Shown one piece after another: positions 10,221 to 44,112 of a stretch of DNA of 64,000 nucleotides. The notes under the pieces were generated by a model. The model saw nothing but the letters and a program-made list of their open reading frames with translations. It was not told the origin of the DNA and did no database searches. The DNA comes from Actinotignum timonense. Lineage in GTDB: Bacteria; Actinomycetota; Actinomycetes; Actinomycetales; Actinomycetaceae. Position 1 is the first letter of the stretch, and every line of letters starts with the position of its first letter. Where the stretch lies: contig NZ_LT706966.1 in NCBI RefSeq assembly GCF_900155575.1, positions 131,030-195,029 on the forward strand, read 5' to 3'. Position numbers and translations under genes: made by a program.

Positions 10221-10232
10221 CATCGCCTCCAT

Positions 10233-10290
10233 ACCTGCCGGGGCAGGTTTTCGCTTCATTGCGTATCCAGTATCTGGTCCAGTATCTGGT
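10233..10290. promoter_or_regulatory. Operator-like repeats between the ABC operon and the ROK gene
   Basis: The divergent intergenic region holds a 16-bp perfect palindrome ACCTGCCGGGGCAGGT at 10233-10248. It also holds two head-to-tail copies of CCAGTATCTGGT at 10267-10278 and 10279-10290, each itself an inverted repeat (CCAG-TAT-CTGG). The position between the importer operon and the ROK regulator makes them candidate binding sites for that regulator, controlling both directions. Confidence 0.6.
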
Positions 10291-10332
10291 TACCGGTTGC
10301 CTCGCGAACATTATTACGTTAGTTTCTTTAGT

Positions 10333-11517
10333 ATGTCAAACGTTTCGAAGTTCCCGGCTGCGGTGACCCGCAGGGTGCAGCGCCGCATGAACCTCCTTGC
10401 GGCGTGCCAGTACCTGGTGCGCGAATCGCAGACTATCGCGGAAATTGCGGGGAAAATTGGCGTCACGCGGCCGGCTGCGGAAAGCATCGTGGCCGATCTT
10501 GATGATTTGGGTTGGCTCAAACAGCTGGAGCCCGAAAACACGCTGGGGCGCCCGGCGGTGCGCTGGGTGCTGGACGAGCAGGCCGTTTACGTGCTCGGTT
10601 TAGATATTGGCGCGCACCATTGCACCGCGATGCTCTGCAATGCCCGAGGCGAGGTTCTTGCCGAGCGCACCTGCGAACTTTCCGCAGCTCAGGTGGCTAA
10701 TGAGCGTATTGACGCGGCCGTCGATTTGGGGCGGAGCACCCTCGCGGACGCGAAACTAGACGTGAGAGATATTACACTCTGTTCGGTCGCGTCACCCGGT
10801 GTTATTAACGACGGCGCAGTTGAGTACTTCGGCGGGAGTGGAATGCCTGGGTGGCAGGGCAGCGACATCGCAGCCCAAATCTCCAGCAGGCTGGGCTGCC
10901 ACACGGTGGTGGCCGGCGATTGCGCCCTCGGTGCCCTCGGGGAAGCCTGGCAGGGAGCCGCGGAAGGCCACGACGAAGTGCTGTATATCCTCTCCGGTGA
11001 ACGTACCGGTGCAGCCGCCATCGTGGGCGGGCGTATCCACCGCGGGCTGCGAGGCGGGGCCGGCCTGATCGGCGAACTTGGGGTACTGCGCTGGCGCGAT
11101 ATCGAAGCGGCAACCCACGCCCGGGAGCTGTACCCCGAAGGGGACGTTCCCTCCCGCACCAAGATTTTCGAGAGCGTGGATAGCGATCCGCGCGCCCGCG
11201 ATTTCGTTGATGACTTCGCCGATGCTCTCTCCCTGGGAGCTTCCGCTATGATCCTCGCGCTTGCCCCCTCCCACGTGGTGGTGGGCGGGAAATACTCCGC
11301 CTATGCGGATACGTTCTTGGAGCGATTCATCGAGAACTTACGGAGGATCTGCCCGATTATGCCGGAAGTTTCCGTATCAGCCCTGGGCCCGCGCGCTATT
11401 TGCTTAGGAGCATTGCGGCAAGGACTGGACACCCTCACCGATGACCTCACGCAGATGGCTTCTTCCTCGGAAGTATTCCCATCCGTCCAAGGTTTCCAAG
11501 AAATTTACCGTAGATAA
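10333..11517 (+). CDS. ROK-family transcriptional regulator
   Basis: A 394-residue protein. Residues about 15-75 form a winged helix (QTIAEIAGKIGVTRPAAESIV) and the rest is a ROK sugar-kinase fold starting VLGLDIGAHHCTAMLCN. The usual ROK zinc site CxCGxxGC after the GE-LG segment is absent: here ELGVLRWRDIEAAT follows directly. Kinase activity is therefore unlikely and it should act as a sugar-sensing regulator. The ATG at 10333 is chosen because upstream in-frame codons lie inside the permease gene and operator region. Divergence from the ABC operon and proximity to galT/galE imply control of the galactoside regulon. Confidence 0.85.
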   Translation: MSNVSKFPAAVTRRVQRRMNLLAACQYLVRESQTIAEIAGKIGVTRPAAESIVADLDDLGWLKQLEPENTLGRPAVRWVLDEQAVYVLGLDIGAHHCTAMLCNARGEVLAERTCELSAAQVANERIDAAVDLGRSTLADAKLDVRDITLCSVASPGVINDGAVEYFGGSGMPGWQGSDIAAQISSRLGCHTVVAGDCALGALGEAWQGAAEGHDEVLYILSGERTGAAAIVGGRIHRGLRGGAGLIGELGVLRWRDIEAATHARELYPEGDVPSRTKIFESVDSDPRARDFVDDFADALSLGASAMILALAPSHVVVGGKYSAYADTFLERFIENLRRICPIMPEVSVSALGPRAICLGALRQGLDTLTDDLTQMASSSEVFPSVQGFQEIYRR

Positions 11518-19530: not shown

Positions 19531-20997
19531 CTAGCTAGCCTCCGGTTCGGTCATTGCCGCCGGATTCACCCACGTGTCAAAATCAGCCGCGCTCACCTGC
19601 CCCGAAGCAAGCGCGACCTCCCGCAGCGACGCCCCGCTGGCCTGAGCGGCGCGGGCCAGCTTGGCTGCGGCGTCGTACCCAATATGAGGAGCGAGTGCGG
19701 TGACCAGCATGAGATTGCGGTCCAGGTGCGCGGAGATGACGTCCTCGCGCGGGGCGATGCCGGCCGCGCAGAAACGTTCGAAGGTGCGCAGGGCGTCGCC
19801 GAGGAGGCGCAGTGCCTCCAGCACCGAAAACACCATGACCGGTTTGTAGACGTTGAGCTGGAAATTGCCCTGCGAGCCGGCGAAAGCAACCGCGGCGTCG
19901 AAACCGAAAATCGCGACGCAGACCTGGGTGAGGGCCTCCGCCTGGGTCGGATTCACCTTGCCCGGCATAATCGAGGAACCCGGCTCGTTATCGGGGATCG
20001 CGATTTCACCGATGCCGGTGCGCGGGCCGGAGGCATACCAGCGAATATCGTTCGCGATCTTCATGGCCGCGGCGGCCAGGGTGCGCAGGCTAGCCGAAAA
20101 AGCCACGAGGTCATCGTGGGCGGCCAGCGCCGCGGGCAGATCATCCGCGGGGCGGAACGGCAAGCCGGTCGCCTCCTCGAGCAGCTCGCAGACCCGCGCC
20201 GCGAAACGCGGATGCGAATTCAGGCCGGTACCCACCGCGGTACCGCCCAGCGCCACCCGGTACAGGCCCCGCACTGCTGCCCGCACCCCCGCGAGCGTGC
20301 CCTCCAGCTGCGCCGCCCAGGAACCCACCACCTGATCCCAGCGGATCGGGGTGGCATCCTGCAGATGGGTGCGCCCCACCATCACCACATCCGGGAACTG
20401 GCTCGCGCGAGCGCGGAACGTGGCCGCCAGGGCCTCCACCGCCGGGATGAGGTGGCGGTGCGCCTGGCGAGCCACCGCCACATACATCGCGGTCGGGAAA
20501 GCATCATTCGAGGACTGGCCCTTATTAACGTGGTCATTGGGGTGCACCGGGCTTTTCCCACCGCGCTGGCCGGTAGCGATCTCATTCGCGCGCGCGGCAA
20601 TCACCTCATTGACGTTCATATTCGTTTGGGTGCCCGAACCGGTCTGGAACACCTTGAGCGGGAATTCCGCGTCGAGCACGCCTTCGGCTACCTCGCTGGC
20701 AGCGGCGGTGATAAGGGTGGCGAGCTGCGGATCAAGTACTCCGAGTTCGGCATTCGCGCGGGCGGAAGCGCCTTTGAGTAGCCCAAAGGCGTGGATGAGG
20801 GGGCCGCCCCAGGTGTAGCGTTCCCCGCCGATGGGGAAATGCTGGAGCGAGCGAGCGGTCTGCGCGCCCCAGTAGTGCGCGGCGGGCACCTCGACCGGGC
20901 CCATCGAATCCGTTTCCGTGCGGGTGAGCTGAGCTGCGGCGGCGGGCTGCGTTGCGGCGGCGGTGCCGGCCGCGCCGGTGAGCTGATCCTTTGTCAT
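19531..20997 (-). CDS. fumC: Fumarate hydratase, class II
   Basis: A 488-residue class II fumarase, converting fumarate and malate in the TCA cycle. [11 protein letters not shown] is the superfamily signature with the catalytic Ser; [11 protein letters not shown] carries the conserved His; [17 protein letters not shown] is the N-terminal active-site segment. The ATG at 20997 (MTKDQLTG) is chosen; an upstream start at 21027 is possible. An Ala/Thr/Gln-rich leader of about 25 residues precedes the core. It converges with the SGNH gene and is divergent from the coiled-coil gene. Confidence 0.95.
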
Positions 20998-21175
20998 GAT
21001 TCCAAGGGTAGCGCCTGCGCTACCCACGCACGCCCTGCGCCGTCTTGCCTACGCCACTGAAGTGGCATCGCTCACGCTCGCGGTATTTGGCCAGGAAAGC
21101 CGGCCGCGGGCGGGCCGCGAAGATCTGCGCGCGCTATGTTTATTAGGTAAAGTCAGGCGCGGACGAAGGAGGGTC

Positions 21176-22040: not shown

Positions 22041-22814
22041 TTATTCCAAGGAGGCCAGCACCTTCAGAGAAGTTTCCAGTGTGGCATCGATAGCTTTCGT
22101 AACAATCTCACGATCAGGTTCGTAGGAAGTCATATCCTCGTCCTCATCCTTGAGGGGATTACCATCGATAGCCAAGATGGCTCCCGATTTAACCCGGTGA
22201 ATTGAAGCCGTAATGAATAGCGCGGCGACCTCCATCTCGACTCCGATGGCCCCGGCATCACGCCATTTTGGTTGGTCATTGCCCAGGATCGGACTCGGGT
22301 AGAAGTTAGCGCTGGTGATAACGACACCCGCATGCGTATTCAAATCGGATTCCTCCGCGGTGCGCACGAGGCTACTCGTGACCTGGAGATCAGGAACCGC
22401 GGGATAATTCATGGGAACGACAAGTTCTGTGTAGCCATCACACCGCACAGCACCGGTAACAACAAGAAGGTCTCCGTCTACCACATCGCGCTGCACTCCA
22501 CCCGCTGTACCAGCGCGGATGATGTATTTCGCGCCGCCTCGGCACAGCTCTTCAAAGCAGCACGCAGCACCAGCTGCACCAACGCCGTGCGAGGCAACCG
22601 TAATGCGTTTTCCTTCGTATTCCCCAACGTAGGAATGATATTCGCGATTCTTCGCGATGGGCTTCGCGTTGGCGAGAAGGCCGGCGGCTTTTGCTGCTCG
22701 ATCTGGGTCACCAACCACCAAAACTCGATCAGCGAGTTCCGCTACCGGGATCTTCGTGAGCGCCAGCGTTTCATCCTGCCCCTGCCGGAGCGGGACGTAT
22801 TCATTCTTAGTCAT
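22041..22814 (-). CDS. Uridine phosphorylase-like nucleoside phosphorylase
   Basis: A 257-residue member of the NP-I nucleoside phosphorylase family, cleaving a nucleoside with phosphate to base plus (deoxy)ribose-1-phosphate. VLVVGDPDRA is the N-terminal phosphate site, IRAGTAGG the central conserved loop, and AIGVEMEVAALF the ribose-binding motif. The length and the PLRQGQDETLALTK start fit uridine phosphorylases. AAAGGAG precedes the ATG. It is the last gene of a minus-strand operon that also encodes a second phosphorylase, a nucleoside importer and sugar-phosphate enzymes. Confidence 0.85.
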   Translation of the reverse strand: MTKNEYVPLRQGQDETLALTKIPVAELADRVLVVGDPDRAAKAAGLLANAKPIAKNREYHSYVGEYEGKRITVASHGVGAAGAACCFEELCRGGAKYIIRAGTAGGVQRDVVDGDLLVVTGAVRCDGYTELVVPMNYPAVPDLQVTSSLVRTAEESDLNTHAGVVITSANFYPSPILGNDQPKWRDAGAIGVEMEVAALFITASIHRVKSGAILAIDGNPLKDEDEDMTSYEPDREIVTKAIDATLETSLKVLASLE

Positions 22815-22833
22815 CTATTTCTCCTTTGAAATC

Positions 22834-23616
22834 CTAAATATCTGATAGTGCATCGTGGCACGGGCAGGAAGGATCCACCTCCAAACGAGCCACCGTTTCA
22901 GCGAGTGCTTTTTTGATTCGGGGCTGGCCATCGGCCACGGTTCGCCACACCAGACCCGCCGTGACCGGAGCGTCCTGGACTCCTTCGACACCGGCGTCGA
23001 GATCCGAAACAAACGAGAGATTACAGACGCACATCCCCAGTTCACGAGCCAAGGTTGTTTCCGGATGCTGCGTCATCGAGATGACGGAAAACCCTAGTTT
23101 TTGGAACACCTGTGACTCTGCACGAGTGGAAAAGCGTGGGCCCTGGATGACTACTGCCGTTCCACCGTCATGGTATTTCTCCTGCAAGCTATCCAGTGCC
23201 GCCACCGCCGCATCGTGCAGGCGGGGACAGTACGGATCCGCTACCGACACATGGACGACCTTCGGGCCTTCGTAAAATGTTTGATCCCGCCCCCAGGTTC
23301 GGTCAAAATACTGGTCAGTAATGACGAAGTCTCCCGGTGCGTAATCAGCACGCAGAGACCCCACGACAGATGAGGTAACCAGCGTCGAAACACCAAGGTT
23401 ATGCAGCGCTTTCAGGTTAGCTCGGTAGTTAATCATGTGGGGCGGAACCCCGTGATCCTTACCGTGCCTTGTCATGAAAGCGACTTCTTTTCCTCCGATT
23501 TCTCCAATCGATACTTCAGATGAAGGCCTTCCATATTCAGTATCGACAACAACATGTTCCGGGTCCTCTAGAAGTTCATAAAGTCCTGACCCGCCAATGA
23601 TTCCCATCTGTGGCAT
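22834..23616 (-). CDS. mtnP: MTAP-type purine nucleoside phosphorylase (MtnP-like)
   Basis: A 260-residue enzyme of the S-methyl-5'-thioadenosine phosphorylase group. MGIIGGSGLY is the N-terminal signature, TRHGKDH the phosphate/ribose contact, IQGPRFSTRAES and SMTQHPETTLARELG the conserved family motifs. The family cleaves 5'-methylthioadenosine, 5'-deoxyadenosine or related purine nucleosides to adenine or hypoxanthine plus the ribose-1-phosphate derivative. With the MtnA-type isomerase and class II aldolase of the same operon it would start a DHAP-shunt-like pathway. Exact specificity for MTA, methylthioinosine or inosine cannot be read. Confidence 0.85.
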   Translation of the reverse strand: MPQMGIIGGSGLYELLEDPEHVVVDTEYGRPSSEVSIGEIGGKEVAFMTRHGKDHGVPPHMINYRANLKALHNLGVSTLVTSSVVGSLRADYAPGDFVITDQYFDRTWGRDQTFYEGPKVVHVSVADPYCPRLHDAAVAALDSLQEKYHDGGTAVVIQGPRFSTRAESQVFQKLGFSVISMTQHPETTLARELGMCVCNLSFVSDLDAGVEGVQDAPVTAGLVWRTVADGQPRIKKALAETVARLEVDPSCPCHDALSDI

Positions 23617-23622
23617 TTCTTA

Positions 23623-24387
23623 TCACCATCCTGCTACTGCGGACATACCACCATCGACAACAAGGTCATGTCCGCTGATGAAACTGGCCGCCTCCGATGC
23701 AAGGAACACGCAAGCACGGCCAATGTCCTGCGTAGTCGCTGTTCTTTGCAGAGGAACACCCGCCATCCAACTTTGATACCCGGCCGGCCAGCTTGTGGCT
23801 AAAGTACCGTCGCTATCGATGAGGCCAGGAGAAACAGAGTTCACTCGAATCCCGTATTTCCCACATTCCAAAGCAAAATTACGAGTTAACATTTTGACGC
23901 CAGCTTTGGAGGCATCGTAATGCGCGTGATTCATTGCCGGAACAGATGCCTCAACCGAGGCTATGTTGATGATGGAGCCAGCTACATTTGCTTGCGCCAT
24001 CTGGGATGCCATCTTTTTCGAGACAATGAACGTCCCGTTGAGATTGACATCAACCACTTGCTTCCACTGCTCAACCGTCATTTCCTCGAGCGAGATTACA
24101 GGTTGAACACCCGCGTTATTGACAAGCACATCGACATTTCCGCATTCTTGCACCGCTGCTTCGATCATTTCATCAACATCGGTTTCGGAACAGATATCTC
24201 CAACCACTTGGAATGCAGAGACGCCCACACCGCGTATTTCGTTTGCAAGTTCATCCGCTCTGGCGCTTTCGCGCAACGAATGCACGATTACCGAAGCCCC
24301 CGCCTGCGCAAAGACTCGGGCAATTCCAGAGCCGAGATTGCCATCGGCTCCCGTAATCAAAACGACTTTATCTTTTAGCTCGTTCAT
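23623..24387 (-). CDS. Short-chain dehydrogenase/reductase
   Basis: A 254-residue classical SDR. TGADGNLGSG is the nucleotide-binding glycine motif, NNAGVQ the structural motif, and YDASK (with an upstream Ser in NIASVEAS) the catalytic site. It overlaps the aldolase stop by 4 bp and is followed by mtnP after 6 bp, so it belongs to the nucleoside pathway. It may reduce or oxidise the aldehyde released by the aldolase, or act on a sugar hydroxyl. The substrate is not determinable from sequence. Confidence 0.88.
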   Translation of the reverse strand: MNELKDKVVLITGADGNLGSGIARVFAQAGASVIVHSLRESARADELANEIRGVGVSAFQVVGDICSETDVDEMIEAAVQECGNVDVLVNNAGVQPVISLEEMTVEQWKQVVDVNLNGTFIVSKKMASQMAQANVAGSIINIASVEASVPAMNHAHYDASKAGVKMLTRNFALECGKYGIRVNSVSPGLIDSDGTLATSWPAGYQSWMAGVPLQRTATTQDIGRACVFLASEAASFISGHDLVVDGGMSAVAGW

Positions 24388-25004
24388 GCGTGAATCAGCT
24401 CCACTCCTTCGGGGAATGCGGTCTCTTTATCACCGAGCAACATCGCTCGGTAAGTGTTCTGAGCGGCCTGTTCTAATAGGGATGCACGCCTGAAAGCCAT
24501 CTCAGGGTCTTCGCCAACCGTGCAGCAACCGTGGTGCGCAAGTATGGCACAATTGTGTTTTTCCATCTGCCGCGCAGCCTCATCGGCGAGTTCGTCCGAC
24601 CCGTTTGGATGATAGGGAACAACACCAACAGACTTCACGTACAAAGCATCATCGAGTGTAAAGAACCGAATCTCGTAACCCAGAGCATTGAGCAGCACTG
24701 CCGTTTGGGGATGCAAATGGAAAATTGAATTCACATCCGAACGGGTTCGATAGATTCTGTCGTGGAGTTTCCACTCACTTGAGGGGCGAGAATCGAAAGG
24801 ACCGGTTTGCCCAATTTTCATTCTCGCGAAAGATGCCGGGGTTAGCTCATCGAGCCAGGTACCCGACTTGGTAATGAAATACTCATCGGAGCCAGGGGTA
24901 CGCACCGAAATATTACCGCCGGAGCCTAGGACCAATCCCGAGGCTACCGCTGTATGTGCGTGCCGAATCAGGCTATCCACCAACTCCTCTGTCGTCTTGT
25001 ACAA
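24384..25004 (-). CDS. Class II aldolase/adducin family sugar-phosphate aldolase
   Basis: A 206-residue zinc aldolase of the fuculose-phosphate aldolase fold. GSGGNISVR is the N-terminal phosphate loop, E77 in SSEWKLH is the probable catalytic acid/base, and zinc ligands H96 and H98 in HLHP plus His in AHHGC complete the site. The family makes DHAP plus an aldehyde from ketose-1-phosphates. Placed with an MtnA-type isomerase and phosphorylases, the likely substrate is ribulose-1-phosphate or its 5-deoxy/5-methylthio form. The start is TTG at 25004, preceded by GGAGG; no in-frame ATG is near. Confidence 0.87.
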   Translation of the reverse strand: MYKTTEELVDSLIRHAHTAVASGLVLGSGGNISVRTPGSDEYFITKSGTWLDELTPASFARMKIGQTGPFDSRPSSEWKLHDRIYRTRSDVNSIFHLHPQTAVLLNALGYEIRFFTLDDALYVKSVGVVPYHPNGSDELADEAARQMEKHNCAILAHHGCCTVGEDPEMAFRRASLLEQAAQNTYRAMLLGDKETAFPEGVELIHA

Positions 25005-25022
25005 TTTTCCTCCATGTATTTG

Positions 25023-25796
25023 TCAACTTCTCACCCGCATCATCGAGAACTGAAAACGTCCCTCGCGGAAATACGTCTTAGCGAACAAAATCGGTAAATG
25101 GTCTCTATCGAAATGCAACTGGTACAGCCCTAAGAAGGACTCATCGCGGGCTTCGTGTTGCATCCCGAAATCACTTCCCACAACCGCGTGTAGATCGGTC
25201 GAGGCGTATTTGATCGAGTGGCCTACAAGATCGCATAGCGCAAAAATCGAGCCGTGTATCGACTGCACATCGAATTCAGGGGGGAAGATTCCGGCGCGAA
25301 TGACTTCGAACGATACAGATACCATCGCTTTATTTGCTTCCACTTCACGACGAGTTTCGATAACTGGTTCGTTATCCTCAAGACGCAGCAACTTTATTTC
25401 TGTTTCTGTTGCCGCACGGAGACGTTTTTCGGTATATCGAATCGTTGGATCCATCCCCGCCGCTGCGATTGTCTGAGTCATCGATGTTAACTCTGAGAGA
25501 TTAGAAGCCATCACCGCCTGTACGTCAGTAACAAATGTTCCCGAGCCTCGGCGACGAATAACCAAACCCTGAGCGGCCAACTCCTGTAATGCTGACCTCA
25601 AGGTATTTCGAGATACCCCAAGTTCCGCCGCAAGCACCGGCTCAGAGTCCAACGCCTCTCCCGGTTCCCACTCACCCGCATGGATTCTCTTCCTTAAAAC
25701 CGATGCCACTTCGGCGGCCGCACCGACATTGGGTGCGCGTGTGACCACTGGAGTTACCGGATTATCAGAATGCGGATACATAGGGCTCAGAGTCAT
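25023..25796 (-). CDS. GntR/HutC-family regulator
   Basis: A 257-residue regulator. Residues about 27-95 form the GntR winged helix (EPVLAAELGVSRNTLRSALQELAAQGLV), and residues about 115-255 form a UTRA ligand-binding domain. It lies inside the nucleoside operon, 18 bp before the aldolase and 1 bp after the cupin gene, and so is likely autoregulatory. The natural ligand may be a sugar phosphate of the pathway. Inverted repeats TTGTA-n8-TACAA upstream of mtnA are plausible operators. Confidence 0.88.
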   Translation of the reverse strand: MTLSPMYPHSDNPVTPVVTRAPNVGAAAEVASVLRKRIHAGEWEPGEALDSEPVLAAELGVSRNTLRSALQELAAQGLVIRRRGSGTFVTDVQAVMASNLSELTSMTQTIAAAGMDPTIRYTEKRLRAATETEIKLLRLEDNEPVIETRREVEANKAMVSVSFEVIRAGIFPPEFDVQSIHGSIFALCDLVGHSIKYASTDLHAVVGSDFGMQHEARDESFLGLYQLHFDRDHLPILFAKTYFREGRFQFSMMRVRS

Positions 25797-25797
25797 A

Positions 25798-26247
25798 TCA
25801 TTTCCCTTCGTCGTGCTGTTGCATTGACTTTATCCCATAGGCATCCTGCATCTCCTTACTTGCTATTTCGAACCCTTCCCAGGAAAAACCTGGGGCCATT
25901 GTTGTGCCCAGAAGAGTCCACTCTCCTAAAGACATCGACCCTTGCCATACACCGGCTTTCACCACGTGCTGAGGCCGCTGCCCCGCTCTCAAATCGTTTC
26001 CGAGTATTGTTTCGCGGCGTTCCCCGCTTTCATCTATCTCGACCAGAAGCAACGGTGCTCCGGCGTACCAGTGGTACACTTCGGGGCCACTCAACCTGTG
26101 GAGTTCGGACCACTGATCTCCACCCACGAGGTAGTAGATTGCGGTGGAATGCTCATCGACATAGGTTTGTCGATGCAGTCCGCCTTCCTGGTCAAGCTCG
26201 GAAAGATCTAGCAGCTGTGCAATTTCCTCACGCGTCAATGGGTTCAC
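25798..26247 (-). CDS. DUF985 cupin protein
   Basis: A 149-residue single cupin. GGLHRQTYVDEHSTAIYYLVGGDQ and EVYHWYAGAPLLLV match DUF985 proteins, a small beta-barrel family of unknown activity that may be a sugar or nucleotide-sugar epimerase or binder. The start is GTG at 26247, with AAGGAGG eight bases upstream, and it overlaps the permease stop by 20 bp. Its place in the nucleoside operon suggests action on the imported sugar or a released aldehyde, but that is only inference. Confidence 0.8.
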   Translation of the reverse strand: MNPLTREEIAQLLDLSELDQEGGLHRQTYVDEHSTAIYYLVGGDQWSELHRLSGPEVYHWYAGAPLLLVEIDESGERRETILGNDLRAGQRPQHVVKAGVWQGSMSLGEWTLLGTTMAPGFSWEGFEIASKEMQDAYGIKSMQQHDEGK

Positions 26248-27148
26248 GTTTCGTCTCCTCCTTCTTTTTCTTGACGAAATTCACGGTCGTCAGCAACAGT
26301 GCGAGCAGAGTAACGACGTAGGGGGCGGCGTCGGTCACTTGGGTTGGAATACCGATTCCCTGCGCTCGGAAGCCGAGAGCTTCGGCCGTACCGAAGAGGG
26401 CCGCGGCTCCAAGAACTCCAATTGGGTGAGAACGTGCGAGCATGACTGCAACAACGGCAATCCATCCGCGCCCGGCGGACATCTCTTCAGAGAATTGCAC
26501 AACGTTCCCCAACGCCAGTTGGGCACCACCTAGGCCGCACAGAAGACCCGAAATAATAACAGCTGCGTACTTGTAGGAAACAGGATTGACACCAAGGGTT
26601 TGTGCCGCGAGAGGCTTCTCTCCAACCCCGCGAAGCCGCAACCCGAGTGGCGTACGGAAGATAACAATCCATGCGACGAAAACAAGTACGAATGCGAGGT
26701 AGCCCAATACCGTTTGGCTGAATAGCGCCTTGCCAATCCACGGAATGTCACTGAGCAAGGGGATCGAGTAGGTTTTCAATCCCACAATCCGCGGATCCAC
26801 GAATGTACCCGACGTATGGAAAAGCCCCACCAAGAGGAAGGAGGTGACACCCGTTGCCAGAATATTCATAGCGACGCCGATAACAATTGGTTCCGCCCCG
26901 CGGTTGACACTTCCATAGGCCAGGATCAATGTAAAGATTCCCGCAGCAAACATGCCTCCCAGCGCACCCAGGAGAGCACTGCCGGTGTAATACGAGGTGG
27001 CCACCGCGAAGAAGCAGCCGATCAGGAGTTGTCCCTCAAGCGCAATATTGAATATGCCTGCTTTATCGCAGATCAAACCCCCAAGCGCAGCAAATAGAAT
27101 TGGGATAAGAGCTCGAACAATAGAGTCGATGAGTGCAGCATCAAACAT
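26228..27148 (-). CDS. Nucleoside ABC transporter permease (second)
   Basis: A 306-residue membrane permease of the branched-chain amino acid/ribose/nucleoside type (BPD_transp_2). NIALEGQLLIG is the characteristic early motif and FRTPLGLRLRGVGEKPLAAQTLGVN the cytoplasmic loop that contacts the ATPase. It pairs with the larger permease upstream; their stop and start share one base (TAATG). BMP-type nucleoside importers use exactly this set of two permeases, a double ATPase and a lipoprotein. Confidence 0.9.
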   Translation of the reverse strand: MFDAALIDSIVRALIPILFAALGGLICDKAGIFNIALEGQLLIGCFFAVATSYYTGSALLGALGGMFAAGIFTLILAYGSVNRGAEPIVIGVAMNILATGVTSFLLVGLFHTSGTFVDPRIVGLKTYSIPLLSDIPWIGKALFSQTVLGYLAFVLVFVAWIVIFRTPLGLRLRGVGEKPLAAQTLGVNPVSYKYAAVIISGLLCGLGGAQLALGNVVQFSEEMSAGRGWIAVVAVMLARSHPIGVLGAAALFGTAEALGFRAQGIGIPTQVTDAAPYVVTLLALLLTTVNFVKKKKEETKREPIDA

Positions 27149-28347
27149 TATTTCTCGCCCCCTTCAGCAAAGGCGTGGTTTTCGGCCTGAGGTTGTGATG
27201 ACGATGCGTTATCTGTCGTTTCGCCACTAGGATCTGCTTTCTGCTTCTTCTTGAAGGACGGAAGTGCAACCCTGAAGACGATCAAAACGATAACGACGCC
27301 CTGAATTACGGCAGCAATCTGGGGAGACATTCCCAAGCCTCGGCTCATTGAACCGGCGCCCGCCATAATGGCTCCGAAGAACAGACCTGCGATGAGAACT
27401 GCATACGGACGGTACAGAGCTAGGAGTGCCACCATCAGCCCGGTCCATGCGTACCCGGAAGATAACAAAGCTCCGTCAATGAGGCGTGTTTCAGGAGCTC
27501 CGATCGTGAGCATCACGCCAACTAGCCCCGCTATTCCACCAGACAGAGCCATGACTTGGAGGCTCAGTTTCCGTTCGCTCCCACCGCCGTAGCGAATGAA
27601 AGTGGGATTCTTCCCGTTGAGCCCGGATTCATATCCAAAGATCGTGTTCCGGTTGACGTAAGCCATTCCGATCACAACGAGCAGAATGATAACGAATGAC
27701 CAGTTCACAGAATTACCTATAGTGGAAATGAAATTACCGCGTCCCAGGCTTTCCGATATTGACTTGCCAAGCCCTGACCTCAAGGGAAGAAGCATGGGGA
27801 TTTGAACGTCAAGAGATATCTGTTCCGAGGCAACCATCTGCGATGACTGGTCTTTCAACGGGTATCGGATCATCCACGATGCAAAGAAACGTGCTGGATA
27901 TGAAAGTAGAAGCGATGTGATGAGAATCGGCACTCCGGGCCAGAACTGGAGAATACCAGAGAGCAACGCCCAGAGCATTCCGCCAATAATTCCACCGACA
28001 ATCGCACATACCATCACGAGTAGGCCAGGACCTGGCATGTACAGTGCCACGATGCCACCCACTAGCCCGCCCATGATCATTTGGCCTTCAGTACCGATAT
28101 TGAGAATTCCAGACCGGAAAGCAACCGCCGTAGCCATTGCCATTCCGATCAGAGGAATCGCTCGCTGTATCGCATTGGTGACGCCGGCAGAGGTAAGGAT
28201 TGAGCCTTCTGCCATTGTTGTGTAGGCATCGGTGGGGGAATATCCCGCAGCAGCGATAAATATCGCGCCAATGATAAACGCGGCAAGGATTGACAGGGGA
28301 ATCGGCCCCGCCAACCAGCGCAAAACAGCGTTCATTTTAGTCTTCAT
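27148..28347 (-). CDS. Nucleoside ABC transporter permease (first)
   Basis: A 399-residue BPD_transp_2 permease with NIGTEGQMIMG as the family motif and around ten helices. The C-terminus beyond residue 365 is a hydrophilic tail. It overlaps the ATPase gene by 11 bp and the second permease by 1 bp, so the three are translated together. It corresponds to the NupP-type subunit of nucleoside importers. Confidence 0.9.
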   Translation of the reverse strand: MKTKMNAVLRWLAGPIPLSILAAFIIGAIFIAAAGYSPTDAYTTMAEGSILTSAGVTNAIQRAIPLIGMAMATAVAFRSGILNIGTEGQMIMGGLVGGIVALYMPGPGLLVMVCAIVGGIIGGMLWALLSGILQFWPGVPILITSLLLSYPARFFASWMIRYPLKDQSSQMVASEQISLDVQIPMLLPLRSGLGKSISESLGRGNFISTIGNSVNWSFVIILLVVIGMAYVNRNTIFGYESGLNGKNPTFIRYGGGSERKLSLQVMALSGGIAGLVGVMLTIGAPETRLIDGALLSSGYAWTGLMVALLALYRPYAVLIAGLFFGAIMAGAGSMSRGLGMSPQIAAVIQGVVIVLIVFRVALPSFKKKQKADPSGETTDNASSSQPQAENHAFAEGGEK

Positions 28348-29857
28348 GGCCTAGTGCACCTCCTGCCATGAGTAGGCCCAGCTTGCTTTCAGTAGCTTCA
28401 CTAACCGGCATCTCGGCTACTATCTCGCCTTCATACATGACGGCAACGCGGGTGGATAGCGAGAGAATCTCGCTCAGTTCCGCGCTAATCAGGAGGATTC
28501 CGCCACCGGCATCACGATAGTGGGTCAGCGTTGAGTGAATGAACTCAATAGCTCCGATATCAACTCCGCGGGTTGGCTGCTCCGCAACTAACAGTGGCGA
28601 GTTGTATTCCAATTCGCGCGCAATGAGTATCTTTTGCAGATTCCCACCAGAGAGGGTGCCAACCGCAATATTCTCATTCGCGATCTTGACAGAGAACTTT
28701 TCGATGAGTCGCCGCGCGAAGGAAGCGCGGGCGGGGCGATCAATGATTCCTTTCCGTTTAGTCAGTTCCTTGCTGCGATGGTGCCCCATTGCCAGATTCT
28801 CTTCCGCGGATGCCTCCGGCGCCGCACCCACACCTTGCCTATCTTCCGGGATATACGAGAGTCCCTTTTCGCGCCGTTTTCGTACGGTTGCGCTGGTGAC
28901 ATCGGATCCCGATATAGATACCGAACCGCTCGTGATCGGAATCAGCCCGGCGATGGCGCTCGCTAATTCGGTTTGTCCATTTCCGGCTACTCCAGCTATC
29001 CCGAGAATTTCTCCCTCGCGGACTTCGAGCGAAAGATTACGAACTTTCGTTTGCTTTTGGGAGTCTTGAACACACAGGTTCTTTACCTCAAGCACCGTAC
29101 GTCCCGGAGCAAGTTGGGAGGGCGCCTGCGTGAGATCCACATCGCGACCCGTCATCGCGTGCGTCACCGATTCCGGAGTAGCTTCGGCCGTATTCATTCG
29201 TGCTACCACTTGCCCGTCGCGCAAAACAGTAACCCGGTCAGAGATCTCCATAACCTCCCGGAGCTTGTGGGTAATAAGAATGATGGTCTGACCCTGCTCC
29301 TTGAGCTGCCGCAAAACATCAAATAACTGGTCTGTTTCTTGCGGAGTCAAGACGGCCGTTGGTTCATCGAGAATCAACACCTTCGCGCCACGATAGAGAA
29401 CCTTGATGATCTCCGCGCGTTGCAGGAGACCTACGGGTGCATCTGCCACGCGCATGCGAGGATCTACATCCAGACCAAAGCGTTGCGCGTAGCTTTCGAC
29501 AATTTCGACAGCCTCAGCCCGGTTAATCAAACCTCCGGTTGTCGGTTCCTTGCGGAATACGACATTCTCAGCAACCGTCATGGACGGGAACATCTGGAAC
29601 TCTTGGAATACCATTCCAATTCCGGCTCTGATAGCGTCCAGCGGGCTTGAGAAGTGAACTTCCGTCCCATCAAGGAAGATCGAACCTTCATCCGGGGTAT
29701 AGAGTCCAGACAGAATGGACATGAGGACTGATTTCCCTGCGCCGTTCTCGCCCATGAGCGCATGAATCTCACCCTTTTTCACCGAAAAAGTGACGTTCTT
29801 ATTTGCCTGGACACCGGGGAAGGATTTTGTGATGCCTCTCATTTCGATATCAAGCAT
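28337..29857 (-). CDS. Nucleoside ABC transporter ATPase, duplicated domain
   Basis: A 506-residue protein made of two fused ABC ATPase domains, as in RbsA/NupO-type proteins. The first half has Walker A GENGAGKS and Walker B VLILDEPTA. The second half has a degenerate Walker A (GVAGNGQTE) but an intact LSGGN signature and VAEQPTRGVD, as usual for this class. GGAGG lies six bases before the ATG at 29857 and abuts the ATG at 29863, so the downstream start is preferred. A strong hairpin lies between it and the upstream lipoprotein gene. Confidence 0.92.
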   Translation of the reverse strand: MLDIEMRGITKSFPGVQANKNVTFSVKKGEIHALMGENGAGKSVLMSILSGLYTPDEGSIFLDGTEVHFSSPLDAIRAGIGMVFQEFQMFPSMTVAENVVFRKEPTTGGLINRAEAVEIVESYAQRFGLDVDPRMRVADAPVGLLQRAEIIKVLYRGAKVLILDEPTAVLTPQETDQLFDVLRQLKEQGQTIILITHKLREVMEISDRVTVLRDGQVVARMNTAEATPESVTHAMTGRDVDLTQAPSQLAPGRTVLEVKNLCVQDSQKQTKVRNLSLEVREGEILGIAGVAGNGQTELASAIAGLIPITSGSVSISGSDVTSATVRKRREKGLSYIPEDRQGVGAAPEASAEENLAMGHHRSKELTKRKGIIDRPARASFARRLIEKFSVKIANENIAVGTLSGGNLQKILIARELEYNSPLLVAEQPTRGVDIGAIEFIHSTLTHYRDAGGGILLISAELSEILSLSTRVAVMYEGEIVAEMPVSEATESKLGLLMAGGALGHED

Positions 29858-29882
29858 TGGCATCCTCCCTTCTTACAAAAGT

Positions 29883-29916
29883 GGAGTGGGGCCGTGTAGG
29901 TTTCCAGCCCCACTCC
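29883..29916 (-). terminator. Intercistronic hairpin after the BMP lipoprotein gene
   Basis: Arms 29883-29892 and 29907-29916 (GGAGTGGGGC and its complement) form a perfect 10-bp stem with a 14-base loop. On the minus strand a short ACTTTTG run follows. It probably attenuates transcription so that the binding lipoprotein is made in excess over the ATPase and permeases. Confidence 0.75.
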
Positions 29917-29923
29917 GTTGGGA

Positions 29924-30991
29924 TTAGTTAAACTTGCCGGTTGCGTCAGGTGGCGTAATTTCGCCGTCGATAATTTTTTGCTTGATTTCCGCAAGCTTCG
30001 CAACCACATCCGGATGATCCATGACCGTGCATTGCGATTCCGCCGCACCCGGAGCGAGCGAAACAAGATCCATGCCGCCTTCTGCCAAACCGAAGGATGA
30101 GAACGATTCAGCTTGTCCAGCATCAATCTTGTCGATGAGTTGCGGAATTAGCGAATCCATGAGTTTCAAAGTGCCGTCACCAACCCCGCCAGGAGTCAGC
30201 GGGCACTGGTTCACATCAACGCCGTACCCGGTTACACCGCCACTTCCAGTCGCCTCAAAAATGCCGCCGTTCGATCCGGAAGCTACAGCGAAGATATGAT
30301 CCACTCCCTGAGCAACTAAGGCAGATGCCTGCTCTTTGGCTCGTGCAGGATCGGAGAAGGGACTATCACCACCAATGAACAGCTGCTGGTCCGATACCGC
30401 CGGATTGGCAGCCTTAGCTCCCGCAGCGTACGCGTCGGTGTACCGGTGAATGAATGGAATATCTACCGCTCCGACCGAGCCAACACGATTGCTCTTTGTG
30501 AGTAATCCAGCTTCATATCCGAGTAGATAGGCAGCTTCGTGTTCGCGGAAGACTGCGCAGTACATATTGGACGGGTAGGGGCCCGCCGGGCAGTCATCAA
30601 TGTGAATGAACTTCTGGTCCGGATAGCGTTCTGCATATTCGAACGCTACGTCCGTATAGGAATACGTGATAGTTACGATGTAGTCAGGGTTTTCGGCAAT
30701 TGCCTGATCCATATTTTGGCGAATCGAGGTTTGATCGCTATTCCCCTCATAAACCTTGGCGGTTCCTCCGTGCTTTTCAGCGGCTTTCTCAACGCCAATC
30801 TTTCCCGATTCCAGGAACTTGTTAACGCCGATGGGGTCATTGGTCAGGTAGATATAAGTAGGGCCATCGGAACCGCCCTTGGCCGTCCCATTGTCCGCGT
30901 TGTCACTTCCACCGCATGCAGTGAGGGAAAGGGACAGAGCCGCGACACCTAAGATAGCCGCAAGCTTTGACTTCGCCTTTGAAGTAGCCAC
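29924..30991 (-). CDS. BMP-family nucleoside-binding lipoprotein
   Basis: A 355-residue PnrA/BMP-type basic membrane lipoprotein. The signal peptide ends with lipobox LTAC. The mature part has the family's two-lobe fold, with GNSDQTSIRQNMDQAI, FREHEAAYLLGYEAGLLTKS and VGAVDIPFIHRYTDAYAAGA as typical segments. PnrA-type proteins bind purine and other nucleosides. The start is GTG at 30991 with AAGGAG upstream. It is the second gene of the operon, 23 bp after the isomerase gene, and feeds the permease/ATPase set that follows. Confidence 0.92.
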   Translation of the reverse strand: MATSKAKSKLAAILGVAALSLSLTACGGSDNADNGTAKGGSDGPTYIYLTNDPIGVNKFLESGKIGVEKAAEKHGGTAKVYEGNSDQTSIRQNMDQAIAENPDYIVTITYSYTDVAFEYAERYPDQKFIHIDDCPAGPYPSNMYCAVFREHEAAYLLGYEAGLLTKSNRVGSVGAVDIPFIHRYTDAYAAGAKAANPAVSDQQLFIGGDSPFSDPARAKEQASALVAQGVDHIFAVASGSNGGIFEATGSGGVTGYGVDVNQCPLTPGGVGDGTLKLMDSLIPQLIDKIDAGQAESFSSFGLAEGGMDLVSLAPGAAESQCTVMDHPDVVAKLAEIKQKIIDGEITPPDATGKFN

Positions 30992-31014
30992 GCTGTTCTC
31001 CTTAGATTATTTCT

Positions 31015-32037
31015 CTATTTTGTGCGAATAGGTCCGAGAGGTACCGTTGCAAGTGTTTCACCACGAGCAATACGAATGACTCGCCGATCCGTGACAATAG
31101 CGGTGATATTCTCGTGCGGTGTCACGTCAAATGCAGGGTTGATAGCCTCGGTTCCTTCAGGAGCCGTCCGAACTCCGTGGAAGTTCGCAACTTCCTCGCT
31201 ACCACGGTCCTCGATCTTGATATCTTCACCCGTCTTCGTCGCCATATCGATGGTCGATTCCGGAGCCACAATAATGACTGGAAGATTCATTGCCTTAGCA
31301 CCAAGCGACAGGGAGTAGGTACCGATTTTATTAGCGGTATCACCGTTAGCCGCGATGCGATCAGCTCCGGCAAAGAAGGCCTGAGCAAAACCGCGACGAA
31401 GCAGGAAAGGCCCGGCGGAATCAACAATGAGCCGGTAGGGTGCACCCATTTGCTGGAGTTCCCAAGCGGTAAGTCGCGATCCCTGCAGTAGGGGACGCGT
31501 TTCAACCGGAAGTGCTTCCTTAAGAGTTCCCCGCTCGAACATGGTCTGGATAACACCGAGTGCGGTTCCCCGCTCCACGCAAGCCAAACCACCGGTGTTG
31601 CAGACAGTCATAACCGAATGCTGCCCTTCACCAAGCAGTTCTTCCATAAGATCCGCACCGTACTGCCCCATGGAATAGCACGAAGCAATATCCTCGTCGC
31701 GAATCTTTAGCGCCTCTTCAAGAATCCGCTCCTTGCCTTCACTCGCGTATTGCATAACGCGTTTAACGCCCCAGGAAAGATTGACAGCAGTCGGACGAGC
31801 ATTCGCGAGACGATGAGCAGCCTCTTCTAGTTCACTTCCGGTCAGTCCCTGCTGGGCAACCAGTGCAACGCCCAGGCCCCCCGAAACTCCCAGAGCGGGT
31901 GCGCCGCGTACTGCCAGTCGCTTGATGTCATCGATAAGTTCGTCAAGATCTGACACTTTTCGCACTACCAGTTCGCCCGGCAGTTTCGTCTGGTCAATGA
32001 GTTCAATATGCCCATCGATCCAATCAATAGTCCTCAT
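31015..32037 (-). CDS. mtnA: MtnA-type (methylthio)ribose-1-phosphate isomerase
   Basis: A 340-residue member of the eIF2B-alpha/MtnA isomerase family, converting an aldose-1-phosphate to ketose-1-phosphate. The family catalytic pair is present: C146 in TVCNTGGLA and D226 in GADRIAANGD. VRGAPALG and ETRPLLQGSRLTAWEL are the conserved motifs. The product would be ribulose-1-phosphate, 5-methylthio- or 5-deoxyribulose-1-phosphate. None of the later aerobic methionine-salvage genes (mtnB, mtnC, mtnD) is in the operon; a class II aldolase is instead. It is the first gene of the operon, with AAGGAGG seven bases before the ATG. Confidence 0.88.
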   Translation of the reverse strand: MRTIDWIDGHIELIDQTKLPGELVVRKVSDLDELIDDIKRLAVRGAPALGVSGGLGVALVAQQGLTGSELEEAAHRLANARPTAVNLSWGVKRVMQYASEGKERILEEALKIRDEDIASCYSMGQYGADLMEELLGEGQHSVMTVCNTGGLACVERGTALGVIQTMFERGTLKEALPVETRPLLQGSRLTAWELQQMGAPYRLIVDSAGPFLLRRGFAQAFFAGADRIAANGDTANKIGTYSLSLGAKAMNLPVIIVAPESTIDMATKTGEDIKIEDRGSEEVANFHGVRTAPEGTEAINPAFDVTPHENITAIVTDRRVIRIARGETLATVPLGPIRTK

Positions 32038-32053
32038 TGACTACCTCCTTCAT

Positions 32054-32114
32054 CTTGTAAGTTGTTCTACAAGCCTGTCACAGCTGTGCCATCTTGTCAA
32101 TAAGTTATTCTACA
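32054..32114. promoter_or_regulatory. Operator-like repeats between mtnA and the divergent genes
   Basis: CTTGTA (32054-32059) and TACAAG (32068-32073) form an inverted repeat with an 8-bp spacer, just upstream of the mtnA ribosome site. The word AAGTTGTTCTACA (32059-32071) recurs with one change at 32102-32114, and ATCTTGT recurs at 32052 and 32091. The spacing and divergent location suggest binding by the operon's GntR regulator. Confidence 0.55.
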
Positions 32115-32159
32115 TCTAAGTCTATTGTTGGACATGTACTCACAAGGAGGTAAGTACAT

Positions 32160-32453
32160 ATGGATCAGAAAACGTTACTTGAGGCTTTTGGGTGGTTAGG
32201 GTCGCTCCTTGTCGTTCTTTCCCTGATCCTGCCTAACCAAAGAAAGTTCCGTTTTTGGAACTTCGTCGGCAGCGGTATCGCCGCTATTTACAACCTCATC
32301 TTGGGCATTTGGCCTATGGTTATCATGAATACGGCAATCGTGATTATTGATCTTTACTGGCTTCAGCGCCTCATACGGAAGGACCGCGATCACCGAAAAG
32401 ATGCGGATTCCAATGCGCAGTCCCAAGCGCCAACGCCCGCTTCCAATACGTAA
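32160..32453 (+). CDS. Small YgjV/CBU_0592-like membrane protein
   Basis: A 97-residue protein with three short hydrophobic segments (about 8-23, 32-47, 51-68) and the pattern GWLGSLLVVLSLILPNQRKFRFWNF typical of small YgjV/CBU_0592-type membrane proteins. The tail is hydrophilic. AAGGAGG lies 8 bases before the ATG. It is divergent from mtnA and is followed 39 bp later by the nucleoside hydrolase, so it may be controlled by the same operator. The function is unknown; a vitamin or nucleobase transport role is only speculation. Confidence 0.7.
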   Translation: MDQKTLLEAFGWLGSLLVVLSLILPNQRKFRFWNFVGSGIAAIYNLILGIWPMVIMNTAIVIIDLYWLQRLIRKDRDHRKDADSNAQSQAPTPASNT

Positions 32454-32492
32454 GAACCTACAAAGAGATATCAACATTCACAGGAGTTTTCC

Positions 32493-33449
32493 ATGAAGAA
32501 GCTGATCCTAGATCTTGATACCGGCATCGATGATTGCCTGGCACTTGCCTATGCTTTGGGTTCCCCGGAGGTAGAAGTCATTGGAGTAACCGGCACGTTC
32601 GGGAATGTCCAGCGGGATACGGGCATCCAGAACAGCCTTAGCCTTCTTGATCTATTCGGCCATCACAACATTCCCGTCTTTGCCGGAGCTTCCCACGCCC
32701 TCCAGCGTTCTACTTTCACTGTCCAAGAAGCATCAGCGCTGATTCATGGACGAAACGGCCTTGGTGACGTACAAATCCCACAATCCAACCGGCAGCCTGA
32801 GCCAGAATCCGCCTGCGACTTCCTGATCGAATCGGCGAAGGAATACGGCGAGAACTTGGTAATCGTGGCGACCGGACCAATGACTAACCTCGCTCAAGCT
32901 TTGGAAAAAGACCCAGGTTTCCACAATCGGTGCCAGATTGTCATCATGGGTGGGGCCCTGACGGTTCCGGGCAATTGCAATCCCGTACAAGAGGCAAATA
33001 TCTCCCAGGATCCCGAAGCCGCTGATGCCCTGTTCCGTTCCGGAGCGAAGGTCACCATGATCGGTTTGGACGTCACACTACAAACGCTCCTCACGTACGA
33101 AGAAACCGCAGCCTGGCGCCGAATTGGAACACCGGCAGGAAACTACGTAGCAGACATAACCGACTCATACATTCGGGCATACGGCACAATCGCTCCTTAT
33201 TTAGGTGGCTGCGGACTTCACGATCCACTCGCGGTAGCTATCGCAATAGATCCGTCACTCGCTTCTTTCTTCGAAACCAACCTGAAAGTCGATGTGGAAG
33301 AACCTTTCCGAGGTAGGACAATCGGAGATGAGCACCGCCTTAACGATCCGAATAAGACCGTCAAGGTGGCACTCGAGGTCAATGCCGAGCTCTTCTTAAA
33401 GGAATTCATGCACCGGATATCAACTCTTCTGCGTAGCTGCGCTATCTAG
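32493..33449 (+). CDS. Inosine/uridine-preferring nucleoside hydrolase
   Basis: A 318-residue nucleoside hydrolase of the IUNH family. LDLDTGIDDCLAL contains the calcium-binding DxDxGxDD motif, MGGALTVPGN is the second conserved loop, and LHDPLAV supplies the C-terminal Asp ligand. It splits ribonucleosides to base and free ribose in the cytoplasm. With the two phosphorylases of the divergent operon, the cell has both hydrolytic and phosphorolytic nucleoside cleavage here. AGGAG precedes the ATG. GC is as low as in the rest of the island. Confidence 0.92.
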   Translation: MKKLILDLDTGIDDCLALAYALGSPEVEVIGVTGTFGNVQRDTGIQNSLSLLDLFGHHNIPVFAGASHALQRSTFTVQEASALIHGRNGLGDVQIPQSNRQPEPESACDFLIESAKEYGENLVIVATGPMTNLAQALEKDPGFHNRCQIVIMGGALTVPGNCNPVQEANISQDPEAADALFRSGAKVTMIGLDVTLQTLLTYEETAAWRRIGTPAGNYVADITDSYIRAYGTIAPYLGGCGLHDPLAVAIAIDPSLASFFETNLKVDVEEPFRGRTIGDEHRLNDPNKTVKVALEVNAELFLKEFMHRISTLLRSCAI

Positions 33450-43499: not shown

Positions 43500-44112
43500 T
43501 TTTCCAGAGCCGCACCGGGGCTTCGCACCCGGCTTCCATGGCGGCAAATGTTTCGGGCACGTCGATAATGCGCTGGTTCTTCGAGCCGCGGAACGTGAGG
43601 TCACGAATGAACTGGGATTGGATAAAAGGCCCGTCCACCAGCACGTCCACGTGGGAAAGAAGTTCGCGTTTATCTTCGGTTTCTTCCAGGAGCTGCTCGA
43701 AGGTGTAGCCGCTCCAGCTCCAAATTGTTTTACTATTCCCGAAGCGTTCCCGGAAACGCCGGGCCAGGGGCAGTAGCACCGGGGTATTGAGGAAGGGCTC
43801 GCCGCCCACGAAAGACACCCCGGCCACGTAGCTTTTCGCGCAATCCTCGAGGATGCGTTCTTCTAGTTCCTCTGTGTAGGGGGTGCCGTAGCGGAAACTC
43901 TGGGCCGCCACGTTATAGCAGCCCGGGCATTTGAAGGGGCAGCCGGATACGTAGATCGCGCAGCGCACCCCTTCCCCGTCCACCATAACGAAGGGCTTGT
44001 AATCGGCAACATAGCTGCGCGATAAGCGCCGCCCATCCCAGGCGCCGGGGCGCTTGGGTTGGTGCACCCCCGGAGCTTCCGGAGGTGTGGAGAGCAGGCG
44101 CAATTCTCGCAT
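43483..44112 (-). CDS. nrdG: Anaerobic ribonucleotide reductase activating protein
   Basis: A 209-residue radical SAM activase. SGCPFKCPGCYN holds the CxxxCxxC iron-sulfur site and SFVGGEPF is the SAM-binding GGE motif. It installs the glycyl radical on NrdD under anaerobic conditions. It lies 162 bp after nrdD in the same direction. The N-terminal 35 residues are an extension relative to the short enteric NrdG. Confidence 0.93.
   Translation of the reverse strand: MRELRLLSTPPEAPGVHQPKRPGAWDGRRLSRSYVADYKPFVMVDGEGVRCAIYVSGCPFKCPGCYNVAAQSFRYGTPYTEELEERILEDCAKSYVAGVSFVGGEPFLNTPVLLPLARRFRERFGNSKTIWSWSGYTFEQLLEETEDKRELLSHVDVLVDGPFIQSQFIRDLTFRGSKNQRIIDVPETFAAMEAGCEAPVRLWKNGDYD

Follow-up and report, generated by a model that had tools for sequence, protein, structure and literature searches.

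Which nucleosides would a bacterium import if it carried, in one operon, a complete nucleoside-family importer, two phosphorylases, a sugar phosphate isomerase and an aldolase? The question is raised by a locus of Actinotignum timonense at positions 22,041 to 33,449 of a 64,000-nucleotide stretch of contig NZ_LT706966.1 (assembly GCF_900155575.1, positions 131,030 to 195,029), which we call the window. A run of 11 minus-strand genes extends from 32037 to 22041 with intergenic gaps of −20 to +60 bp and was therefore taken as one operon. From its 5′ end, it encodes MtnA, a BMP lipoprotein, an ATP-binding cassette (ABC) ATPase, two permeases, a Cupin_5 protein, a GntR-UTRA regulator, a class II aldolase, a short-chain dehydrogenase/reductase (SDR), MtnP, and a second phosphorylase. 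A sequence-only reading of the locus had proposed that the cell uses ordinary external nucleosides as carbon via ribulose 1-phosphate. We think it likely that the operon is a phosphorylase-type dihydroxyacetone phosphate (DHAP) shunt with its own importer, predicted to scavenge 5′-deoxynucleosides, the waste products of S-adenosylmethionine.

The proposed shunt and its enzymes

Pfam and NCBIfam profiles recovered every component that the sequence-only reading had listed, namely the BMP importer, MtnA, two phosphorylases, the class II aldolase, the SDR, the cupin, the GntR regulator, and a nucleoside hydrolase. Its view of a DHAP-shunt-type gene set with a nucleoside-family importer of its own is borne out by the presence of MtnP, MtnA, the class II aldolase, and the BMP importer in one operon. 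Gene content, gene order, and catalytic residues can be read directly from the DNA; the substrates and reactions are what we infer from them. The BMP-type ABC transporter would import 5′-deoxyadenosine, 5′-methylthioadenosine (MTA), and their inosine forms. MtnP would split the adenine nucleosides and the second phosphorylase the 6-oxopurine nucleosides, in both cases to the purine base and 5-deoxyribose 1-phosphate or 5-methylthioribose 1-phosphate, and phosphorolysis would spare the ATP that a kinase would use. MtnA would isomerize these sugar phosphates to the ribulose 1-phosphate form, which the aldolase would cleave to DHAP and acetaldehyde (or methylthioacetaldehyde). Reduction of the aldehyde, to ethanol in the case of 5′-deoxyadenosine, would re-oxidize the NADH formed from DHAP in glycolysis. 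Such a balance would suit a fermenter without a tricarboxylic acid (TCA) cycle, as Actinotignum schaalii has been described (PMC5720513). The window does have a class II fumarase-like gene at 19531-21027 (minus strand), although TCA cycle enzymes are reported to be missing from the A. schaalii genome (PMC5720513).

The first two enzymes of this route are assigned by family and by residue. MtnP (22834-23616), a putative MTA/5′-deoxyadenosine phosphorylase of the adenine type, scored 265 to 298 bits against MTA phosphorylase (MTAP) families, falling just below the equivalog cut-off of TIGR01694 (265 versus 275 bits), and its nearest solved proteins are archaeal and human MTAP. It retains the adenine-binding SDLD pair (Asp205/Asp207, motif SDLDAG), whose counterpart in human MTAP we take to be Asp220/Asp222. 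MtnA (31015-32037), the product of the operon's first gene and a predicted 5-methylthioribose/5-deoxyribose 1-phosphate isomerase, passed the TIGR00512 cut-off (359 versus 279 bits), and its nearest solved relatives are 5-methylthioribose 1-phosphate isomerases. The catalytic Cys/Asp pair noted earlier is indeed present, as Cys146 and Asp226, and is invariant across eight aligned sequences.

The second phosphorylase (22041-22814) had been labeled a uridine phosphorylase, a label that we reject. This PNP_UDP_1 protein reached 164 bits against the uridine phosphorylase family TIGR01718 (cut-off 280), and its nearest solved sequences are Plasmodium purine nucleoside phosphorylases (PNPs; 152 bits), with the E. 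coli uridine phosphorylase at 106 bits. The motif FYPSPILGND stands where the E. coli enzyme has its Gln-x-Arg uracil-recognition motif, presumably within FYPGQER. By alignment with the Plasmodium enzyme PfPNP, whose active-site residues have been assigned roles (PMC3885546), Arg45, Tyr47, Met183, and Asp206, the 6-oxopurine Asp, are retained as R57, Y59, M194, and D217. The 5′ site differs: Val66 corresponds to V78, Val73 to C85, and Tyr160 to F171, and His7, the ligand of the 5′-OH, is replaced by Leu19 in six of six orthologs. Asp217, Leu19, Met194, and Phe171 are invariant across these orthologs.

Mutants of PfPNP give these replacements a meaning. The wild-type enzyme uses inosine and methylthioinosine to much the same extent. 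With His7Phe, the Km for methylthioinosine stays at ~9 μM and that for inosine goes up ~30-fold (11 to 353 μM), while Tyr160Phe costs ~14-fold in methylthioinosine kcat/Km (PMC3885546). The lost 5′-OH ligand would thus favor 5′-alkyl substrates and Phe171 would disfavor the methylthio group, which suggests a 6-oxopurine phosphorylase leaning to 5′-deoxy or 5′-alkyl substrates; we propose a 5′-deoxyinosine/methylthioinosine phosphorylase. Structure comparison was dropped as an arbiter of specificity: with a predicted model (mean predicted local distance difference test score 83), the PNP, uridine phosphorylase, and MTAP folds were near-tied at Z 29 to 31, and we therefore base the assignment on the sequence and the residues of the active site. 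A search of 395 genomes of the class at E 1e-50 found no copy of this PfPNP-like protein beyond the window's own, and it is therefore rare.

These phosphorylase sites bear directly on the use of ordinary nucleosides, in which MtnA would turn ribose 1-phosphate into ribulose 1-phosphate and the aldolase would yield DHAP and glycolaldehyde, avoiding phosphopentomutase. We consider this route unlikely, and we find it just as improbable that ordinary ribonucleosides are an additional, or even the main, substrate of the operon, whose phosphorolytic route would then skirt both phosphopentomutase and the pentose phosphate pathway without a bisphosphate intermediate. The active sites of the phosphorylases point to 5′-deoxy or 5′-alkyl purine nucleosides, and the loci of relatives add a deaminase of the MTA/5′-deoxyadenosine group, as described below. 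The importer family, on the other hand, is known for ordinary purine nucleosides (PMC7093131), a nucleoside hydrolase adjoins the operon, and haloarchaea do make DHAP and glycolaldehyde from nucleoside ribose, though via ribose 1,5-bisphosphate (R15P) and ribulose bisphosphate (RuBP) (PMC9700705). The aldolase scores only 72 bits against the haloarchaeal ribulose 1-phosphate aldolase family (NF053831, cut-off 300). The absence of the phosphopentomutase DeoB, which the sequence-only reading had noted for the locus, extends to the genome, where TIGR01696 has no match. A Corynebacterium glutamicum control was equally without a match, so the missing gene says little about a bypass and we discarded it as evidence for one. 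In A. schaalii, moreover, the non-oxidative branch of the pentose phosphate pathway is reported to be intact (PMC5720513), and ordinary ribose therefore has a normal route.

The aldolase (24384-25004; Pfam Aldolase_II, 206 residues) has the FucA/DrdA fold and shares the operon with mtnA and mtnP. Glu77, His96, His98, and His158 align with the catalytic Glu and the zinc ligands, in agreement with the earlier call of a zinc class II aldolase. Its best solved match (6btd, 73 bits) is DrdA of Bacillus thuringiensis, the 5-deoxyribulose 1-phosphate aldolase of the 5-deoxyribose pathway (PMC6079011), and we propose a 5-deoxyribulose/5-methylthioribulose 1-phosphate aldolase. The SDR (23623-24387), identified by family profile matches, probably reduces the aldehyde product. 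Separate SDRs resembling it occur in an Arachnia locus (56%) and in loci L012 and L006-L010 (39-42%), which are introduced below.

The genome as a whole is consistent with a supply from outside the cell. Its third PNP_UDP_1 protein is an MTA/S-adenosylhomocysteine (SAH) nucleosidase (113 bits, cut-off 73.8), through which the cell can already clear waste of its own making. MtnK was not found in the genome; the operon would therefore be fed by phosphorolysis only, and free 5-deoxyribose would lack a kinase entry. We accordingly regard it as distinctly unlikely that the operon merely disposes of the cell's own 5′-deoxyadenosine and MTA, with a transporter for ordinary nucleosides placed there by chance. 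Disposal has a precedent in B. thuringiensis, where the DHAP shunt is described as detoxifying (PMC6079011, as cited in PMC10986504), and the genome does encode radical SAM proteins. These number only four matches genome-wide, two of them in the window (about 43552-43950 and 55102-55734, minus strand); the operon includes the importer genes and has kept them in distant lineages; and the operon's occurrence is patchy, in three of six Actinotignum genomes.

Importer, regulator, and conserved partners

The importer is complete, as the sequence-only reading had held: a BMP/PnrA-type substrate-binding lipoprotein (29924-30991; Pfam Bmp, 120 bits), a double ABC ATPase (28337-29863; family profile matches), and two BPD_transp_2 permeases (27148-28347 and 26228-27148), all encoded within the operon. 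The nearest solved proteins of the lipoprotein are BMP-family lipoproteins, including BmpA, BmpD, and TmpC/PnrA.

For comparison, we scanned public genomes, relatives from the family, and relatives from the class. Co-occurrence in related genomes, which had been suggested as a check, was found: a like gene set is present in nine further loci, from Cellulomonas fimi (L005), Arachnia (L011), Acidimicrobiia-type genomes (L006-L010), and two class genomes of other families (L102 and L104). All nine retain MtnA, the importer ATPase and permeases, Cupin_5, and the SDR, the last being only a weak match (27%) in L005, near the end of the compared stretch. The BMP protein was detected in L005, L011, L102, and L104 and was not detected in L006-L010, and MtnP is present in eight of the nine (missing from L102). 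Where the window has a 206-residue aldolase, seven of the nine (L005, L006-L010, and L102), as well as L012 and L013, have a 650-residue aldolase-SDR fusion; L011 and L104 showed no such fusion within the compared stretch.

All nine loci and L012 also carry an amidohydrolase of the MTA/5′-deoxyadenosine deaminase group. For the four of these amidohydrolases that were scanned, the best-matching families include N-ethylammeline chlorohydrolase, 5′-deoxyadenosine deaminase, and MTA/SAH deaminase, none above cut-off. The base types of the phosphorylases track this deaminase. Loci with one phosphorylase and a deaminase (L006-L010 and L104) have the base motif NPAAG, of the methylthioinosine type, and the L006 enzyme has as its best solved match 3ozb, recorded in the Protein Data Bank as an MTA phosphorylase and which we take to be the Pseudomonas methylthioinosine phosphorylase. 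Loci with two phosphorylases (the window, L005, and L011) pair an Asp-type (adenine) MtnP with a PfPNP-like enzyme. This pattern fits a pathway for MTA, 5′-deoxyadenosine, and their deaminated forms. Separately, in another actinobacterial genome (L103), an adenosine-deaminase-like open reading frame, seen by eye at 9558-10688, adjoins deaminase, Cupin_5, SDR, and ABC genes.

A different mtnA cluster was seen in L046 and L047 (genomes G125 and G183). It combines MtnK (over cut-off in L046) with a GntR regulator, a sugar-type ABC importer, and an aldolase-SDR fusion, and further contains a second class II aldolase, a Cupin_2 protein, and a DeoC/LacD-like aldolase. The cluster may encode a route for 5-deoxypentoses, in which one aldolase is surplus and unexplained.

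The deaminases also bear on sulfur. MtnP and MtnA are paralogs of methionine-salvage enzymes, and the operon could in principle serve a variant methionine salvage of imported MTA, of the kind found in Rhodospirillum and Rhodopseudomonas, with methylthioacetaldehyde passing on to methionine. We judge this very improbable, given that neither a deaminase nor a 6-oxopurine phosphorylase would help to recover sulfur and that E. coli with the shunt recovers no significant sulfur (PMC10986504). The sequence-only reading's remark that mtnBCD are missing stands for the locus, where profile scans found none among the operon genes (the rest of the genome was not searched), and no methylthioethanol-processing gene was seen in the locus (genome-wide not searched).

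The Cupin_5 (DUF985) protein (25798-26247; Pfam, 110 bits) has a counterpart in every compared locus with BMP-type importer subunits. Its AlphaFold2 model matches 1znp and 1yud, the top structural matches being only DUF985 structures without known function, and a literature search on DUF985 returned nothing metabolic.

The operon's GntR/HutC-type (UTRA) regulator (25023-25796; Pfam domains), which has relatives in L011, L012, L046, and L047, would act as a repressor, probably at paired sites before mtnA. There, two exact copies of a 14-bp repeat, TGTAGAAYAACTTA, flank a TTGACA −35-like box and form a candidate operator at 32058-32114 (minus strand; TGTAGAACAACTTA at 32058-32071 and TGTAGAATAACTTA at 32101-32114). 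They are the sole matches in the 64 kb at two or fewer mismatches, with 0.12 expected. Near-copies occur in G158, a genome of another genus, and the Arachnia locus has a palindrome, GTAGGTTATAGGACAACCTAC, just before mtnA. A sigma-70 scan gave fewer promoter matches than in shuffled sequence.

Several observations count against 5′-deoxynucleoside scavenging. The 5′ specificity of the binding protein cannot be read from its sequence. Phe171 of the second phosphorylase occupies the position of PfPNP Tyr160, where the same change is the costly one for methylthioinosine. Actinotignum lacks the deaminase present in its relatives' loci: the genome has four Amidohydro_1 loci, one of them NagA-like, and the deaminase queries matched none of the four. 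For the aldolase, DrdA scores barely higher than a FucA (70 bits), and homologs of the aldolase at 57-59% identity occur in three Streptomyces-like genomes away from mtnA; orthology therefore does not fix its substrate, and we rejected it as proof of function. Finally, the Cupin_5-SDR pair also occurs away from mtnA in Streptomyces-like genomes, so these two proteins may serve something broader.

On the Streptomyces-like genomes themselves, loci L096 and L097 have the 57-59% aldolase next to a sugar ABC transporter and to genes that, by eye, resemble those for sugar isomerases and glycoside hydrolases. In genus g72 (L071-L076, L078, L080, L083, L099, and L100), Cupin_5 lies directly beside an SDR that is 45-49% identical to the window's, far from mtnA.

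Mobility and neighboring genes

Homologs of mtnA were found in 10 of 213 genomes of the family, the operon itself in half of the Actinotignum genomes and in G158; two A. schaalii records match the window's mtnA at 98%. The GC content of the operon is 53%, against 61% in the rest of the window, and identity between the window and G158 is 70% for ThyA, 89% for MtnA, and 90% for MtnP. G158 holds the operon in two tandem copies (L043/L044; G158:C1:1732584-1746414), identical over 13.8 kb and offset by 12,461 bp, with an IS110-family transposase gene beside each. In two operon-free Actinotignum loci (L059 and L060), the same flanking genes enclose a major facilitator superfamily (MFS) transporter gene and a nucleoside hydrolase. 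On this sequence evidence, the operon is acquired and mobile. The MFS genes lie at 9815-11224 in L059 (Tet(38)-like family matches, below cut-off) and at 11536-12951 in L060, each paired with the hydrolase.

The claim that the whole locus forms one operon holds for the 11 minus-strand genes and not for the nucleoside hydrolase (32493-33449; inosine-uridine-preferring family, IUNH), which is on the plus strand and divergent, and thus outside. It was not found in 15 other loci compared. In L059 and L060, a relative with 66-67% identity occupies the same, operon-free site in opposite orientation, which makes the hydrolase a neighbor, probably outside the system; we therefore rejected it as a member. 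Given its low GC content (0.532), it could have travelled together with the island; the relatives found where the operon is missing are fairly low too, at 0.56. Between the hydrolase and mtnA lies a gene that, like the repeat pair, had been overlooked in the sequence-only reading. It encodes a 97-residue Imp-YgjV-like inner-membrane protein (32160-32453, plus strand), and homologs sit divergent from mtnA at the same place in G158 (L044) and C. fimi (L005).

Comparison with known systems

What appears new here is the complete nucleoside-family ABC importer, the paired base-specific phosphorylases, the conservation of Cupin_5 and the SDR, and the spread among actinobacteria; within partial literature coverage, we found no paper describing the full gene set. 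If the proposal is correct, the operon supplies a specific candidate for an importer dedicated to 5′-deoxynucleosides, which cells excrete as waste and which accumulate in urine, places the DHAP shunt in several actinobacterial lineages, and gives the conserved Cupin_5 family its first metabolic context. The genus Actinotignum is best known for a urinary species that infects the human urinary tract, and a similar habitat may be supposed for the organism of the window by analogy with A. schaalii. Human urine is reported to contain MTA, methylthioinosine, 5′-deoxyadenosine, and 5′-deoxyinosine at micromolar levels (PMC10986504).

Clusters of phosphorylase, isomerase, and aldolase genes, some with sugar transporters, have already been described in bacterial phyla (Beaudoin 2018, PMC6079011). 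With this MtnP variant of the DHAP shunt, or 5-deoxyribose salvage (PMC6079011; Huening 2024, PMC10986504), our operon shares a phosphorylase, MtnA, a class II aldolase, the occurrence of transporter-bearing clusters, and the lack of mtnBCD in the locus; it adds a full BMP-type importer, a PfPNP-like phosphorylase, an SDR, Cupin_5, and GntR, in a genome without the kinase. The haloarchaeal non-carboxylating pentose bisphosphate pathway (PMC9700705) likewise leads from a phosphorylase to a ketose 1-phosphate, a class II aldolase yielding DHAP and an aldehyde, and an aldehyde reductase. However, its ribose 1-phosphate kinase, R15P isomerase, and RuBP phosphatase are not in the window's operon, and the aldolase is far below the family cut-off. 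Plasmodium PNP and the Pseudomonas methylthioinosine phosphorylase are 6-oxopurine phosphorylases that accept 5′-methylthio substrates and share the logic of deaminase plus phosphorylase; the window's enzyme differs from the former in lacking His7 and having Phe at the Tyr160 position, and the Plasmodium step is purine salvage, not carbon use.

The closest parallel in lifestyle is the mtnK-mtnA-ald2-permease operon of E. coli ATCC 25922 (PMC12632272), with which the window shares an isomerase, an aldolase, an operon-borne transporter gene, and the prospective use of external 5′-deoxynucleosides. There, the shunt allows growth on external 5′-deoxynucleosides and is found mainly in extraintestinal isolates (PMC10986504), its operon lying on a genomic island mostly in isolates from urine and blood (PMC12632272). 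The E. coli route employs a nucleosidase, a kinase, and a single putative permease, whereas Actinotignum would split its substrates by phosphorolysis and take them up through an ABC importer that has a binding protein. Were two unrelated urinary bacteria to have gained the same chemistry through separately built shunts, they would offer an example of niche convergence that could be tested.

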